Below are positions 18,818 through 26,927 of a stretch of DNA of 33,235 nucleotides, piece after piece (position 1 is the first letter of the stretch; each line of letters begins with the position of its first letter). The DNA is taken from the NCBI GenBank assembly GCA_903927725.1, contig CAIYOC010000041.1, positions 1 to 33,235 of the forward strand, given 5' to 3'. The position numbers were made by a program, and so were the translations under genes. This stretch comes from an uncultured bacterium. Lineage in GTDB: Bacteria; Planctomycetota; Phycisphaerae; Phycisphaerales; SM1A02. The notes under the pieces were generated by a model. The model searched no databases. It worked only from the letters and a program-made list of their open reading frames with translations, and was not told where the DNA came from.

Positions 18818-21748
18818 TCAGCGCACCAGGTGCACACCGGACGTGTCGACAGCGTGGATGCCCGCCTCATCGATCCACACGTGCTCGATGAGCCGCTGCG
18901 TGACCGGGATCCGGATCAGTTCTTCCAAGGTCGCGGCATCAAAGATCACGATGGCACCCTCGGCGCTGCCCGCGATGAGCCGTTGCCCGTCCGCAGAGAC
19001 CGTGATGGACCCAGCGCCCTGCTTGAAGGGCTGCACGATGTGCACCACCGCACCATCGCGGCCATCGAGCATCGCCAGTTGTCCCTCGCGCGTGACCATG
19101 TAGGCGCGAACACCGTCAGGTGCCCACGCCGCGCTCTCGCACTCGCTGGGCAGGCGGGTCACCCAACGCTCGTGGCCATCGGCTGGATCCAGGCAGATCG
19201 CCCCGCGTTGACGCGATCCCAGCAGGACTCGGCCGTCAGGCCATGCGAGATCAAGCGATCGAAACCCCTGAGGCTCATGTTGGTCATCGGGCGATGCGTG
19301 CTTCACATCCGTCCAGAGCACGCGCCCTTCGGACGACACCAACGCGACGACGCCAGCATCACCTGCCACCGCGATCACGCTGCCGTCCTTGGCCATGGCG
19401 GCGCGCTGCACCATGCCAACGCCGACGATCGCAAGGAGCTGGGGCGCGCGATCGGCGTACGCGATTCGGATCCGATCCACGTCGGCCGCGTCGACCCAAC
19501 CGATGCCCGGCTGTGCATCGAAGGCGAGGCTTCCATCTGCAGTGCCGAACCAACGCTTCAGCTGCTCCGAAGGCACGGTGTAGGCACCACGCGATCCACC
19601 GGAGTACAACGACGCTCCATCGGTCGACAGGCTCCACAGGCGATCCGATGACAGCGGGATGGCTCCGAGCGCCGAGCCATCCAGCACGGACCAGAGCCGG
19701 ATCGAACCGTCAGACGATGCCGTCGCGCAGCGTTGGGCATCGAGCCCGGCGACACCCCAGATCAGCGACTGGTGACCGAGTGCCCTCCACAGCCTTGCGC
19801 CTGTGCGGGGATCGAATGCCGAGAGCGCGCGGCCGCCGACCAACGCCACGCGGCCATCGTCGGACCATCCCACGGAGACGGCGCGCTCGCCTGGCTCGCC
19901 AAGACGCGTGATCGTGCGCGCAGCAACATTCACCACGATCGAACCGCCCTCTGCGCCGAGCAGCGCGACATGAGGATCGGCAGGACACGGCGCAACATCA
20001 CGGACCAAGCCGATGCCCAGCGGCACCAACCACGACGGAGCTTCGGCGCCGGGCTCGTACACGGAGAGTTCCTCGCCTGCGCAGACGAGGTGGCCGGATC
20101 GAGTCTGCGCCACCTCGCCTTGGTTACACGCGGCATTGCCTGAGGACAGCGGGAGCTCCACCCCCACTCCAGAAGCGAGCTCCCGCCAACCGACGTCGCC
20201 TTGCTGCGTGCACACCAAGACGCGGGAGCGATCATCAGACAGGGCCAAGCCGCCAACCTCTGCCGATTGCAGATCGAGTGTCCACCCGAACTGACCATCG
20301 ATCCACTGCACGACAGCCGTCGGTGCTGTGGGCGATGCAGCACGCTCGAACATCCCAACCCCGATCCCATCCACGACGATCCAATCGAGGCATGGCTTGG
20401 GGACCATGCCATCTTGCCCAACCCGAAGCATCCGCTGCACGGTGTCACGCTCAAGCGTGGGCGGCTCGTCCTGCAGCCATGCCAGGCACTGTTCGATCAC
20501 CAAGCGATCGGCATCGAGGATGGCACGCGACGCCACGGCCAAGCGCGCCAAGCGTGCCTCGTGCCGGGCCTTTGTCGCCTGACCCACCGCGATGATCGAG
20601 AGCGCGAGCAGGGAGCCGATGACGCCGAGCCCGACGGACACCGGCACCCGGTTGCGCCAGAGCGCGCGACGCACGCGCTCGAGTTGCCCCTGCTCGCCCA
20701 CCAGGACCGGCTCGCCACGCAGATGACGCCGCAGGTCATCGGCGAACTGCGCTGCGGTCTGGTAGCGATCCATCGGATCATGCGCTGTGGCCCGCCGAAC
20801 GATGCGTTCCAGTTCCGTCCGCTGCAGGCCGCCGAGCATCGGGAGGTGCACCGTCACGGGGCGGCTCGCCGCGTGCAACTGCTGGGCGATCGTCGCACCC
20901 ACGAGTCGGCGCAGGGGTTCACCTGCGATCAGCTCGTAGAGCATCGCACCGAGCGCGAAAATGTCTGCGCGCACATCCGGCAGGCGCGATGGATCGAGTG
21001 CCTCCGGTGCGACGTAGCGCATTGTGCCCTCGAGGCGCGAGCCGAGGAGCACGTTCGTAACGGCTGGCGATTGCTCCGACAGGCCCGCGATTCCGAAGTC
21101 GATCACGACCGGACGATCGCTCGCGTCGACCAGCACGTTGTCGGGCTTGAGATCACGGTGGATCACGCCGCGACCGTGGGCATGCTGCACGGCCTCGGCA
21201 ACGGTCGACATGGCCGCCACGCGCTCGGCGAGCGTTCGCGTGCCCGAGCCCGCCCAGCTGGTGAGCGTGCGTGCATCGCGCACGAGTTCCATGGCGATCC
21301 AGAACCAGCGGCGTCCACCGATCTCGCTCACGTCGGTTCGGTAGAACCGTGCGATGCCTGGGTGCTCGAGCTGCGCCAGCAGCCGCGCCTCGGCAGGTCG
21401 CAAGGGTCGATCATCCGCGCGCCAGACCGCCGGCATGATCTTGAGCGCCACATGTCGGCCCACGCCATGCTCCACGGCCTCAAAGACACGCCCTAGGCCG
21501 CCCTCGCCCAGCGGTCGCATGATGGTGAATTCGCCCAGCACGGTGCCAGCGCCGATGCCATCGCGCGAGGCGGGTCCGCCAGCCTCGAGCGGCTGCATGG
21601 CATCGTTCAGGCCCAGCAGCGTCCGGGCCTCGGCCAGCACCGCCGGATGGAATCGTTCAGCCGCTTCAGCCTCACGACCCTCGCACAGCAGTTCGAAGCA
21701 GGTGTGGACCGCGACCAGCCCGGTTGAATCGGTCGAATCGTGACCCAT
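18818..21748 (-). CDS. Membrane-anchored Ser/Thr protein kinase with C-terminal WD40/PQQ-like beta-propeller
   Basis: Kinase motifs: LGEGGLGRVFEAVE, HVALKIM, VIHRDLKPDNVLVD, VIDFGIAGLSE, YVAPEALD; one TM (VPVSVGLGVIGSLLALSIIAVG); repeated propeller blades. Start ATG 21748; the ORF-track extension to 22411 is antisense to the sigma factor. Confidence 0.93.
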   Translation of the reverse strand: MGHDSTDSTGLVAVHTCFELLCEGREAEAAERFHPAVLAEARTLLGLNDAMQPLEAGGPASRDGIGAGTVLGEFTIMRPLGEGGLGRVFEAVEHGVGRHVALKIMPAVWRADDRPLRPAEARLLAQLEHPGIARFYRTDVSEIGGRRWFWIAMELVRDARTLTSWAGSGTRTLAERVAAMSTVAEAVQHAHGRGVIHRDLKPDNVLVDASDRPVVIDFGIAGLSEQSPAVTNVLLGSRLEGTMRYVAPEALDPSRLPDVRADIFALGAMLYELIAGEPLRRLVGATIAQQLHAASRPVTVHLPMLGGLQRTELERIVRRATAHDPMDRYQTAAQFADDLRRHLRGEPVLVGEQGQLERVRRALWRNRVPVSVGLGVIGSLLALSIIAVGQATKARHEARLARLAVASRAILDADRLVIEQCLAWLQDEPPTLERDTVQRMLRVGQDGMVPKPCLDWIVVDGIGVGMFERAASPTAPTAVVQWIDGQFGWTLDLQSAEVGGLALSDDRSRVLVCTQQGDVGWRELASGVGVELPLSSGNAACNQGEVAQTRSGHLVCAGEELSVYEPGAEAPSWLVPLGIGLVRDVAPCPADPHVALLGAEGGSIVVNVAARTITRLGEPGERAVSVGWSDDGRVALVGGRALSAFDPRTGARLWRALGHQSLIWGVAGLDAQRCATASSDGSIRLWSVLDGSALGAIPLSSDRLWSLSTDGASLYSGGSRGAYTVPSEQLKRWFGTADGSLAFDAQPGIGWVDAADVDRIRIAYADRAPQLLAIVGVGMVQRAAMAKDGSVIAVAGDAGVVALVSSEGRVLWTDVKHASPDDQHEPQGFRSLDLAWPDGRVLLGSRQRGAICLDPADGHERWVTRLPSECESAAWAPDGVRAYMVTREGQLAMLDGRDGAVVHIVQPFKQGAGSITVSADGQRLIAGSAEGAIVIFDAATLEELIRIPVTQRLIEHVWIDEAGIHAVDTSGVHLVR

Positions 21749-22828: not shown

Positions 22829-25252
22829 TCAATCCGCAGCGATGCGGAACACGCGCATCCGGGCATGCACGCGGCCAGCGGTGGCCAGCGCGTCGTCACC
22901 CGCGCCGAGGTAGAGATCGATCCGGCCTGCACCCGTGATCGCGCCACCGCAATCGGCGGCGTAGACGATGCGCGGCGCAGCGAGATCGGCTGAGACCCCC
23001 GCTTGATCCAGCTCCGGCACGAGCAGCAGCAGCGAACCAACGGGTATCACCCGCGCGTCCACCGCAACCGCCTGACCAGCCAACAACGTGAGCCCGAAGG
23101 GTGATTGAGGCCAGCGCTCACAGGGAACCTCGCGCCACCAGACGAAGCGCTCATTGCGGTCGCACGCTGCCCGCACGATGTCCGGAGCACGCTGCCAGAG
23201 CGCTCGCAGTCCATCCAGCGTTGCAGCCCGCGGATCGAGTGCACCATCGGCCACGAGCAACTTCGCCAGGCTGGAGTACTCCCGCTCGTTGGTGCCGTCA
23301 TGGACGAGGCAGCGCATCGATCCGTCGGCACGCTCGAGCTGCACGCTGCCATTGACGGCTGCGAGGTACACGCTGAACTCATCAGGACCGTGTGCGATCA
23401 CCGGATGCGCAGCCGGATCCTTCGCCGCTGCCGCCAGCCACTGCGCCCGCGTCGGACCCTCGCCACCCGCAGGCAGCCACGTCGGCCGGGCGAAGAACGC
23501 CGTACGTGCATCGCCGCTGGCCGACTCGCGCAGGCGCGGCGAGGCATACGCCGTCACCAGCGCGGGCTCGGCATCGACTGGATGCAGCGAGAGTCTGGAA
23601 CGCGCCGCTTCGGTGCCACCCACAAGCGCATGAAGCACCTCGATCGTGGGGACCGACGGAGCTCGTGAACCAGCGAGGGATCCCGCAGCCGGCGAAGGCT
23701 GCTCACCGTCCATGAGCCATGGCTCGAGCGTTCGGCGCAGGCGATGGAGCGAGGTGCGGTCACTGGTGGCGGCAGCCAGCGCCGTGTGGGGATCGGGCTC
23801 CACAGCCGCCGGTCCGCCCCACGGCACCCGAACGAGCTCGCGATCGAGGAAGACCGCACCATCCTTGTCGACGAATTTCACGCTGAGTGCGGCAGCACCT
23901 CCATCGAGCCGCGCCGTGAGCAACGCCATCATGTTCGGATGCGGGAAGTGTTCCTTCACCCAGTCGCTGCGCGACCAGAGGCTCGAGTCGTGCACGCCCG
24001 CGTGCATGGGGCTCGACACGATCTCCCACAGGTCGCGCCCGGCCGTCGACGCCGTCGGGTGCAGCAGCAGGCGGCTCGTGTGCACATCGCCACTCACGAG
24101 TACCACGCCGCCGGGCACATCACGCACGAGCCGCATCAGCCGCGCGTACTCCTCCGGGTACATGCCCCAGTAGTCGGTCTTGAGCGGCCGCACCGAGCTG
24201 TTGAAGACCATGCTGCTCACGATCACCTTGATCGGGGCGGTCGATGCAGCGAGTCCCTCACGCAACCATGTCCACTGCTGCCGGCCCAGGAGCGTCCACC
24301 CGCCGGCGGTCGCGGCATCGGCCGCACCATCGATGACGGGGTCCACGGCATCGGCCGGAGCGCATCGCGCGGTCCGCGCGAACCACCGCGTGTCGAGCAT
24401 GAAGACCTCCATGGGCCCCAAGCGCAAGCGGTGGTACACGCCCTCCGTGCCGGTCCCGAAGGATGCATTCGCGTGCCACTCGCGAAACGCCTGCAGGCTG
24501 CGTTCCTTCCCCTTGAGTCGACCGTCGGTGTCGTTGAGCCCGAAGTCATGGTCATCCCAGACCGCCGCGAGCGGCGTGGACGACAGCCACTCCGCCATGC
24601 CCGGCTGCGAGAAGAACTCGCCGTAGCGCTTGCGCTGCCGCGCGAGATCGGTGGTGTCGATGTACGGCGTATCGCCGATGAACGCGACGGCATCGGGGTG
24701 CAGGCCGGTGATCGTGCGCAGGAGCTTCTGCGTGCCGTCCTTCTCATCCGCGCAGCTGCCGATGGCCAGCGTGGCCGATGCGGCATCGGCCGCACGCATG
24801 CTGATCGTTCCATCGAAGCCATCCGGGCTGCGCGATGGTCCACCCGCGACGCCGGTGATCCGGTACCGATGCATGCTGCCAGCCACGAGATCCCGGACCG
24901 ACCACACCAGGGTTCGCGGCGTGCGACGCTCGGCGGCAGAGGCTTCGAGCCGCTGCGCGAGCGCAGCCCCCTGCGCATCGAGCACCTCGAGCGCGACCTG
25001 GTCGCCGGGCTCGCCATCCAGGCGGACCCAGACCTGCATGCCGCGGCCATCGAGTTCACCGAGGATCGGTCCATGCGTGATGCGGGTGGCCATGCGACCG
25101 GCGTGTTCGGCCGCGTCATCGCCCGAAGGACCGCCAAGCGCGATCGACGAGCCGACCGGCGCACCTGCACACGCTGCCAGGCAGGCCGCGCCCGCGGCGA
25201 AGGCGAGCGCGCGAAGGATGGCGCATGACGTCTGTTGCAGGCTGGATGGCAT
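22829..25252 (-). CDS. Lipoprotein: PhoD-like alkaline phosphatase fused to MltA-type lytic transglycosylase (3D) domain
   Basis: N-terminus MPSSLQQTSCAILRALAFAAGAACLAAC (lipobox LAAC); PhoD motifs SCADEKDGTQ, FIGDTPYID, VWDDHDFGLND, VSGDVHTSR; C-terminus TAYASPRLRES..., FSVYLAAVNGSVQLERADGS...YSSLAKLLVADGAL..., NERFVWWREVP..., GQAVAVDARVIPVGSLLLLVPE...RIVYAADCGGAITGAGRIDLYLGAGDDALATAGRV, which matches the MltA/3D pattern. One continuous reading frame. Confidence 0.85.
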   Translation of the reverse strand: MPSSLQQTSCAILRALAFAAGAACLAACAGAPVGSSIALGGPSGDDAAEHAGRMATRITHGPILGELDGRGMQVWVRLDGEPGDQVALEVLDAQGAALAQRLEASAAERRTPRTLVWSVRDLVAGSMHRYRITGVAGGPSRSPDGFDGTISMRAADAASATLAIGSCADEKDGTQKLLRTITGLHPDAVAFIGDTPYIDTTDLARQRKRYGEFFSQPGMAEWLSSTPLAAVWDDHDFGLNDTDGRLKGKERSLQAFREWHANASFGTGTEGVYHRLRLGPMEVFMLDTRWFARTARCAPADAVDPVIDGAADAATAGGWTLLGRQQWTWLREGLAASTAPIKVIVSSMVFNSSVRPLKTDYWGMYPEEYARLMRLVRDVPGGVVLVSGDVHTSRLLLHPTASTAGRDLWEIVSSPMHAGVHDSSLWSRSDWVKEHFPHPNMMALLTARLDGGAAALSVKFVDKDGAVFLDRELVRVPWGGPAAVEPDPHTALAAATSDRTSLHRLRRTLEPWLMDGEQPSPAAGSLAGSRAPSVPTIEVLHALVGGTEAARSRLSLHPVDAEPALVTAYASPRLRESASGDARTAFFARPTWLPAGGEGPTRAQWLAAAAKDPAAHPVIAHGPDEFSVYLAAVNGSVQLERADGSMRCLVHDGTNEREYSSLAKLLVADGALDPRAATLDGLRALWQRAPDIVRAACDRNERFVWWREVPCERWPQSPFGLTLLAGQAVAVDARVIPVGSLLLLVPELDQAGVSADLAAPRIVYAADCGGAITGAGRIDLYLGAGDDALATAGRVHARMRVFRIAAD

Positions 25253-25324
25253 CGGTGCATTGAACACCAGACACCTTCACCATGTGAAGCCGGTCGCCGC
25301 GCGACCGCGCGCTAGCCTGCGCGC

Positions 25325-25916: not shown

Positions 25917-26927
25917 TCACTCAGGATCGGAGCCCTTGTCGGATCCAGCAGCATCCGGCGCGGCGCTGGCATCATCGCCCTTGACGCGCCCCTTCCGGCC
26001 GGCCTTGCGTGCCTGCTCGAGCAACTCCCACTGGCGCCACGCCTCGCGCACGGCGTCGGACCATGCAAACGTCGGGCTTGTGGCAGGATCCCACCCCACA
26101 AGGTGCTCCTCGCCCGCGCGCGCATCGGCGCGCGTGTACGCCCAGGGCTGGCCGTAGACCTCCATGCAGAGCTCCCAGACCGCGGGGTCGTGCTCCTTCA
26201 GCTCGGTCACCGTGTCGACATGGTTGTGCTGGTTGTCGTTCTCGCGATTGGTGTCGAAGAAGGACTGCGTGGCCTCGGCCCAGTATTCCATGCGGTTCTC
26301 GCGGGCATAGGCCCCCTGCCACAGGCCCTTCTTCATCGCCGCGTCGTAAGCCGCCTCGAGCCGGCGATCGAAGGTCGGATCGACCGACGACAGGCCCATC
26401 TCGTGAATCGCGTGCGCGAACTCATGGATGAAGATGCTCTCGGTGGCGTATGGATCGCCGGGATACGTGAGCAGGTTCTCTTCGCCGGCACTCACGGCCG
26501 GCCGGTGCGGCGTTGCGCCAAGCCCGCGCGCACGCATGTCCCAGTATCCCTTGGGCTCGAGGTCGCTGTGCTCGGGCACGTCGGTGGTGACCTCGCCCAC
26601 ATCCATGATTGCCACGCGCACGTTGTTGGCACCCATCGCCCGCGCGATCTCGGGACGGCTGCGCAGCATGCGGCGCGCGAGCCACACGGCTTCCTGCAGC
26701 GCGCGTGGATCGACCTTGGCGCTGGCCACGAACGGCAAGCCTTCCCACACGATGCACTGCTCGTAGAAAGGCTTGAGGCCGAAGCGCTCGCGAACGTCGG
26801 CTGCGATCGGCCCCGCTGCCACCACCACGCGATCCACGAGCGTGCTGCCAGGAACCGATGGCCCGGCCGGCCGGTCATCGGCCAAGGTGAACGAAGCGAC
26901 GGCGAGCGTGCAGGCCATGCGGAGCAT
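25917..26927 (-). CDS. Secreted zincin-like metallopeptidase (HExxH), putative
   Basis: Signal-like N-terminus MLRMACTLAVASFTLA; ESIFIHEFAHAIHEMGL (HExxH) and downstream EYWAEATQSFFD possible third ligand. Confidence 0.65.
   Translation of the reverse strand: MLRMACTLAVASFTLADDRPAGPSVPGSTLVDRVVVAAGPIAADVRERFGLKPFYEQCIVWEGLPFVASAKVDPRALQEAVWLARRMLRSRPEIARAMGANNVRVAIMDVGEVTTDVPEHSDLEPKGYWDMRARGLGATPHRPAVSAGEENLLTYPGDPYATESIFIHEFAHAIHEMGLSSVDPTFDRRLEAAYDAAMKKGLWQGAYARENRMEYWAEATQSFFDTNRENDNQHNHVDTVTELKEHDPAVWELCMEVYGQPWAYTRADARAGEEHLVGWDPATSPTFAWSDAVREAWRQWELLEQARKAGRKGRVKGDDASAAPDAAGSDKGSDPE

Follow-up and report, generated by a model that had tools for sequence, protein, structure and literature searches.

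One open reading frame on the minus strand of the window, as we call the whole 33,235-nucleotide stretch of planctomycete DNA analysed here, appeared to join a PhoD-type phosphatase to an MltA-like lytic transglycosylase in a single lipoprotein. We asked whether this is one genuine gene, whether each half retains the residues on which its family depends, where and how often the fusion arose, and what its product might do in the cell envelope. All coordinates given for the fusion are on the minus strand.

Reading frame, domains and export signal

The fusion coding sequence (22829-25252, stop codon included) comprises 807 codons from an ATG start, with zero internal stops. An alternative in-frame GTG upstream, at 25267, would extend the product to 812 aa; we preferred the ATG because the codon matching this GTG is a non-start codon in a relative from the same genus (G001). 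Three Pfam domains scored above their curated gathering thresholds in the window protein: PhoD (PF09423; E 1.2e-28, 100.7 bits against 27), MltA (PF03562; E 4.6e-14, 53.2 bits against 24.3), and 3D (PF06725; E 3.4e-14, 53.2 bits against 23.8). With the frame unbroken, these matches bear out the original prediction that PhoD and MltA/3D modules share one frame, and that the MltA-type module is complete, with both an insert and a 3D domain. Known members of the MltA family (GH102 in CAZy) are stand-alone lipoproteins, whereas here MltA forms the C-terminal half behind PhoD.

Sequence searches of the PDB led from the C-terminal half to MltA-type enzymes and from the N-terminal half to PhoD (2yeq). 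Foldseek was run with a single predicted model covering the full-length protein, confident in the PhoD half and of low confidence in the 3D part, and it ranked Bacillus subtilis PhoD 2yeq first (E 2.8e-23) and recovered the MltA-type enzyme LtgG, 6qk4 (E 5.5e-10). A predicted model of the MltA half alone (3 sequences) had a pLDDT of 49 and was left unused. The protein scored 77.5 bits against the NCBIfam murein transglycosylase A equivalog NF008366 (cut-off 242) and 22.4 bits against the AlkPhosPhoDBac equivalog (cut-off 1000). It is thus a member of the MltA and PhoD families and, by the NCBI equivalog cut-offs, an orthologue of neither; with scores this far under those cut-offs, substrate range may have drifted.

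The lipoprotein signal that had been read from the sequence is present as a lipobox, L25-A26-A27-C28 (25169-25180), with the lipid-anchor Cys codon at 25169-25171. Equivalent LxAC or VxAC motifs occur in G001 and G004-G007, and the window's genus has a lipobox, as does G053, a genome with an unfused PhoD gene at the same locus. Comparison of sequences from the fused relatives G009, G013, and G055 revealed no clear lipobox. The window protein is a candidate for lipidation, and the Ala that follows the lipid Cys suggests an outer-membrane location.

Active-site residues of the two halves

The PhoD-like phosphatase domain spans residues 163-424 (23981-24766). Relative to B. subtilis PhoD (2YEQ, PF09423) it has the same fold and the same Fe3+/Ca2+ ligand set, Cys ligand included, although identity is ~17% and the window protein carries a second enzyme. 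Ligands have been described for the B. subtilis protein (PMC4223295), and in a profile alignment to 2yeq Cys167 (24752-24754) corresponds to Cys180, an Fe3+ ligand. Within GDTPYID (residues 193-199, 24656-24676), whose ligand positions are invariant in 30 sequences, D194 aligns with the ligand Asp207, and Y197 is paired by motif with the Fe-binding Tyr. In WDDHDFGLND (residues 232-241, 24530-24559), D233, D234, N240, and D241 correspond to the Ca ligands D265, D266, N271, and N272, the last present as Asp; the pairing of N240 and D241 supposes a one-residue offset. GDVH (residues 388-391, 24080-24091) supplies D389, equivalent to Asp436, and H391 at the following His ligand position. The set of Fe3+ and two-Ca2+ ligands is thus kept in the alignment (C167, D194, Y197, D233, D234, N240, D241, D389, and H391), which, together with the Pfam score and the fold match, upholds the identification of a PhoD-type metallophosphatase. 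We located no equivalent of the C-terminal capping helix bearing Arg562 and His566, the Pfam match ending at model position 299 of 343.

In the MltA half, the proposed catalytic residue had to be reassigned. Escherichia coli MltA uses D308 as its catalytic carboxylate, oriented by T99, and has two other 3D-domain Asp residues, D261 and D297 (PMC4499186). The 3D domain of the fusion (22847-23071) contains all three: Asp732 (23057-23059), the first of the set and invariant in fusions, equals D261; Asp767 (22952-22954) equals D297, a substrate-binding residue rather than the catalytic acid; and Asp779 (22916-22918) equals D308, the catalytic general acid/base. The codon singled out originally, 22952-22954, therefore encodes D767, and catalysis would depend on D779, which aligns with the Asp replaced by Ala in the inactive chains 2pi8, 2pic, and 2pjj.

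Substrate positions of MltA have also been listed (PMC8562663), and four of five (T99, Y101, Q162, S164, and Y180) are identical in the fusion. T567 and Y569, in the T-A-Y stretch at residues 567-569 (23546-23554), correspond to T99 and Y101 in the alignment to 6qk4 (PMC8562663, PMC4499186), while S636 and Y659 correspond to S164 and Y180. Counting the 3D residues, identical counterparts exist for T99, Y101, S164, Y180, D261, D297, and D308, nearly all of them invariant across fusions. The fusion shares the insert and 3D domains, the catalytic Asp, and most substrate-binding residues with E. coli MltA (2AE0, 2PI8) and Burkholderia LtgG (6QK4), but differs in having Asn for Q162, a change common to stand-alone planctomycete MltAs, and Ala for the second Tyr of the TGYY motif. 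The B. subtilis 3D-domain proteins YuiC and Sps have the same 3D domain and catalytic Asp (PMC4499186), but without an MltA insert domain and without PhoD.

The stretch at 23620-23830 had been described as a linker. With a profile built on the fused MltA half from residue 490 onwards, alignments to many stand-alone planctomycete MltAs began at profile positions 5-16, in the N-terminal part of those proteins, and most of the supposed linker is therefore the helical region native to the MltA N-terminus (residues 480-565, 23558-23815), where the profile match to stand-alone MltAs begins. The insert domain lies further downstream, at 23132-23452 (PF03562 positions 58-163).

Distribution, selection and origin of the fusion

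A single open frame spans the junction in six genomes of the window's genus (G000, G001, G002, G004, G005, and G007), in three of genus g6 (G013, G055, and G163), and in one of genus g2 (G009). These ten separately assembled genomes represent three genera of one family, their proteins being ~38-97% identical to that of the window, and in each the frame crosses the junction uninterrupted. Pieces of the fusion broken by contig ends were found in G003, G006, and G008, and with these counted, the fusion is present in 9/9 genomes of the window's genus. In the family, covered by 181 genomes, genera g1, g2, and g6 alone have the full fusion. No further match to this PhoD model running on into MltA was found in 400 order-level and 392 phylum-level sampled genomes, in which scoring covered the best candidates from each genome, a design that reversed domain order would escape. 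At least two fusions (L031 and L095) were among the best 80 loci of a contig profile scan, and a plasmid search returned partial PhoD-type matches without the fusion. The literature searched yielded no description of a PhoD-lytic transglycosylase fusion. The architecture is therefore as unusual as first supposed, being confined, within the genomes searched, to a single small clade.

Within the window's genus, dN/dS was 0.11-0.17 for PhoD, 0.11-0.19 for MltA proper, and 0.17-0.25 for the MltA N-terminal region, and reached 0.4-0.6 at the signal peptide where measurable. These low values in both halves indicate that both are under similar purifying selection. A chance open frame in GC-rich DNA was ruled out by the domain scores, the dN/dS values, and the junction shared by ten genomes.

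Trees of the two halves were congruent. Fused and contig-broken copies formed one group in the MltA tree (support 96/97), with a stand-alone MltA paralogue of genus g33 as sister (90/93), and one group in the PhoD tree (100/99), adjoining genus g45. A test on raw labels rejected a single clade for sequences labelled fused (AU p ~1e-4); the biological group nevertheless stands, because what fell outside were contig-broken copies of the same genus (L006, L169, and L170) and G053, where the MltA half has been lost. The fusion adjoins coaBC and RNase D in G009, G013, G055, and G163, which belong to the two other genera, while in the window RNase D and men genes lie ~10 kb or more from the fusion on the same contig. 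In G053, a PhoD gene at the syntenic locus ends before coaBC without an MltA half, which is a later loss of that half. The congruent trees and the synteny together indicate one fusion, vertical inheritance, and one observed loss. Just upstream of the G053 PhoD gene (L172:1966-3941) is a 214-codon ORF that resembles the collapsed remnant of cytochrome-type and DUF1552 genes.

By profile search, the fusion is the only PhoD of the window's genome and its MltA half the second MltA. The g33 paralogue (L141 and L148-L150) has the same TAYA motif as the fused half but is unfused, with PhoD on another contig in those genomes. More broadly, a second MltA paralogue type (L141, L142-L145, L148-L150, and the fusions) has TxYA, with Ala for the second Tyr of TGYY, and a widespread MltA paralogue differs in being without this substitution. 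The fusion arose when a diverged second MltA paralogue was joined to a PhoD-like gene at its 3' end in the ancestor of the three related genera, probably next to coaBC.

The same PhoD subfamily also occurs in other single ORFs. Three of ~905 aa (L123:1660-4368, L124:1507-4239, and L127:408-3134), from genus g45, sister to the PhoD-MltA clade, pair it with a Type I phosphodiesterase/nucleotide pyrophosphatase domain (PF01663). Two of 660-671 codons, from genera g5 and g8 (L018:697-2676 and L020:679-2691), pair it with a 3-keto-disaccharide hydrolase domain (PF06439), Pfam-confirmed in L018. Further partners are an S9/alpha-beta-hydrolase-like domain (L048) and LamG (L066). The L123, L124, L127, and L018 fusions resemble PhoD-MltA in joining this subfamily to another hydrolase, but their partner is N-terminal to PhoD and from a different enzyme family than MltA. 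The subfamily is promiscuous in its fusion partners, and that these include quite different hydrolases tempers any claim of a special match between PhoD and MltA.

Function of the fusion product and competing readings

We consider it likely that the product of this singly derived fusion is an exported, lipid-anchored bifunctional envelope enzyme that releases phosphate and cleaves glycan strands. The N-terminal half would act as a PhoD-type Fe3+/Ca2+ phosphodiesterase/phosphomonoesterase and the C-terminal half as an MltA-type lytic transglycosylase, cutting peptidoglycan glycan strands via the single Asp D779; both activities are predicted from the retained residues. With Cys28 lipidated, the protein would be anchored to the outer membrane on its periplasmic side, where the MltA half could bind and trim peptidoglycan and so place the PhoD half at the wall to free phosphate from phosphoesters. 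The benefit to the cell may be local salvage of phosphate and wall fragments. Counting against this reading are the Asn at the Q162 position, the low equivalog scores, the low confidence of the modelled 3D part, the patchy conservation of the lipobox among fused relatives, and a gene neighbourhood that suggests neither phosphate nor wall metabolism. Peptidoglycan in Planctomycetota is no longer doubted (PMC4432640, PMC4432595), and it is expected in the window's genome because two transpeptidase and four Mur-ligase matches were found there.

Less likely, at slightly under even odds in our view, is a reading in which two independent envelope enzymes were tethered by chance, gaining co-expression and shared export while their substrates stay uncoupled, PhoD scavenging phosphate from nucleic acids or lipids and MltA trimming the wall. 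Being a sub-reading of the bifunctional enzyme, it overlaps with it in the confidence we assign. The range of partners joined to this PhoD subfamily (Type I phosphodiesterase, 3-keto-disaccharide hydrolase, S9/alpha-beta-hydrolase-like, and LamG) favours it, as does G053, which dropped MltA and retained PhoD in place; however, divergent genera and every genome of the window's genus have kept the fusion, and both halves remain constrained.

That the MltA half serves mainly as a peptidoglycan-binding anchor parking PhoD at the wall, its catalysis weak or lost, seems unlikely to us. Such a role would fit the Ala at the second Tyr of TGYY in the fusions and their nearest stand-alone relatives, a sign of a diverged paralogue, and an insert domain that in the window's genus matches its Pfam model only from position 57-58. 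It fits poorly with the retention of all three 3D Asp residues and of the Thr, Tyr, Ser, and Tyr substrate positions, and with dN/dS in MltA as low as in PhoD.

We give still less credence to the idea that MltA and PhoD work one after the other on a single phosphate-bearing polymer, linked to the wall and peculiar to these planctomycetes, with MltA freeing the glycan strand and PhoD cutting the phosphodiester that links polymer to strand. If it held, the fusion would point to a phosphodiester-linked wall polymer in Planctomycetota that has yet to be described.

An artefact, in which a missed stop or a chimeric contig had merged two genes, would be conceivable in a 283-contig assembly whose relatives sometimes have the gene contig-broken, but it was in practice ruled out by the same junction in ten separately assembled genomes at ~38-97% identity and by the congruent trees.

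What is new is the combination of two known enzyme families, and the system itself is of no new kind. The bifunctional enzyme would be a rare natural pairing of a phosphate-releasing with a wall-cutting enzyme, kept in a phylum whose cell wall had been a matter of long dispute, within a PhoD subfamily that repeatedly recruits other hydrolases as partners. As a concrete protein open to experiment, it could be used to ask whether phosphate is carried by planctomycete walls or whether their turnover goes together with phosphate salvage.

The genes around the fusion (menaquinone genes, RNase D, coaBC, a Ser/Thr kinase, and DUF1552/DUF1592) indicated no phosphate or wall pathway. The Ser/Thr kinase gene (18818-21739, minus strand) encodes a beta-propeller-like C-terminus and is divergent from an ECF sigma factor gene (PF07638; 21740-22471, plus strand). 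At 25917-26927 (minus strand), the window encodes a conserved protein, 85-93% identical within the genus, with a HEFAH zinc-protease-like motif; its Pfam matches are all sub-threshold, and it is possibly an uncharacterised metallopeptidase.
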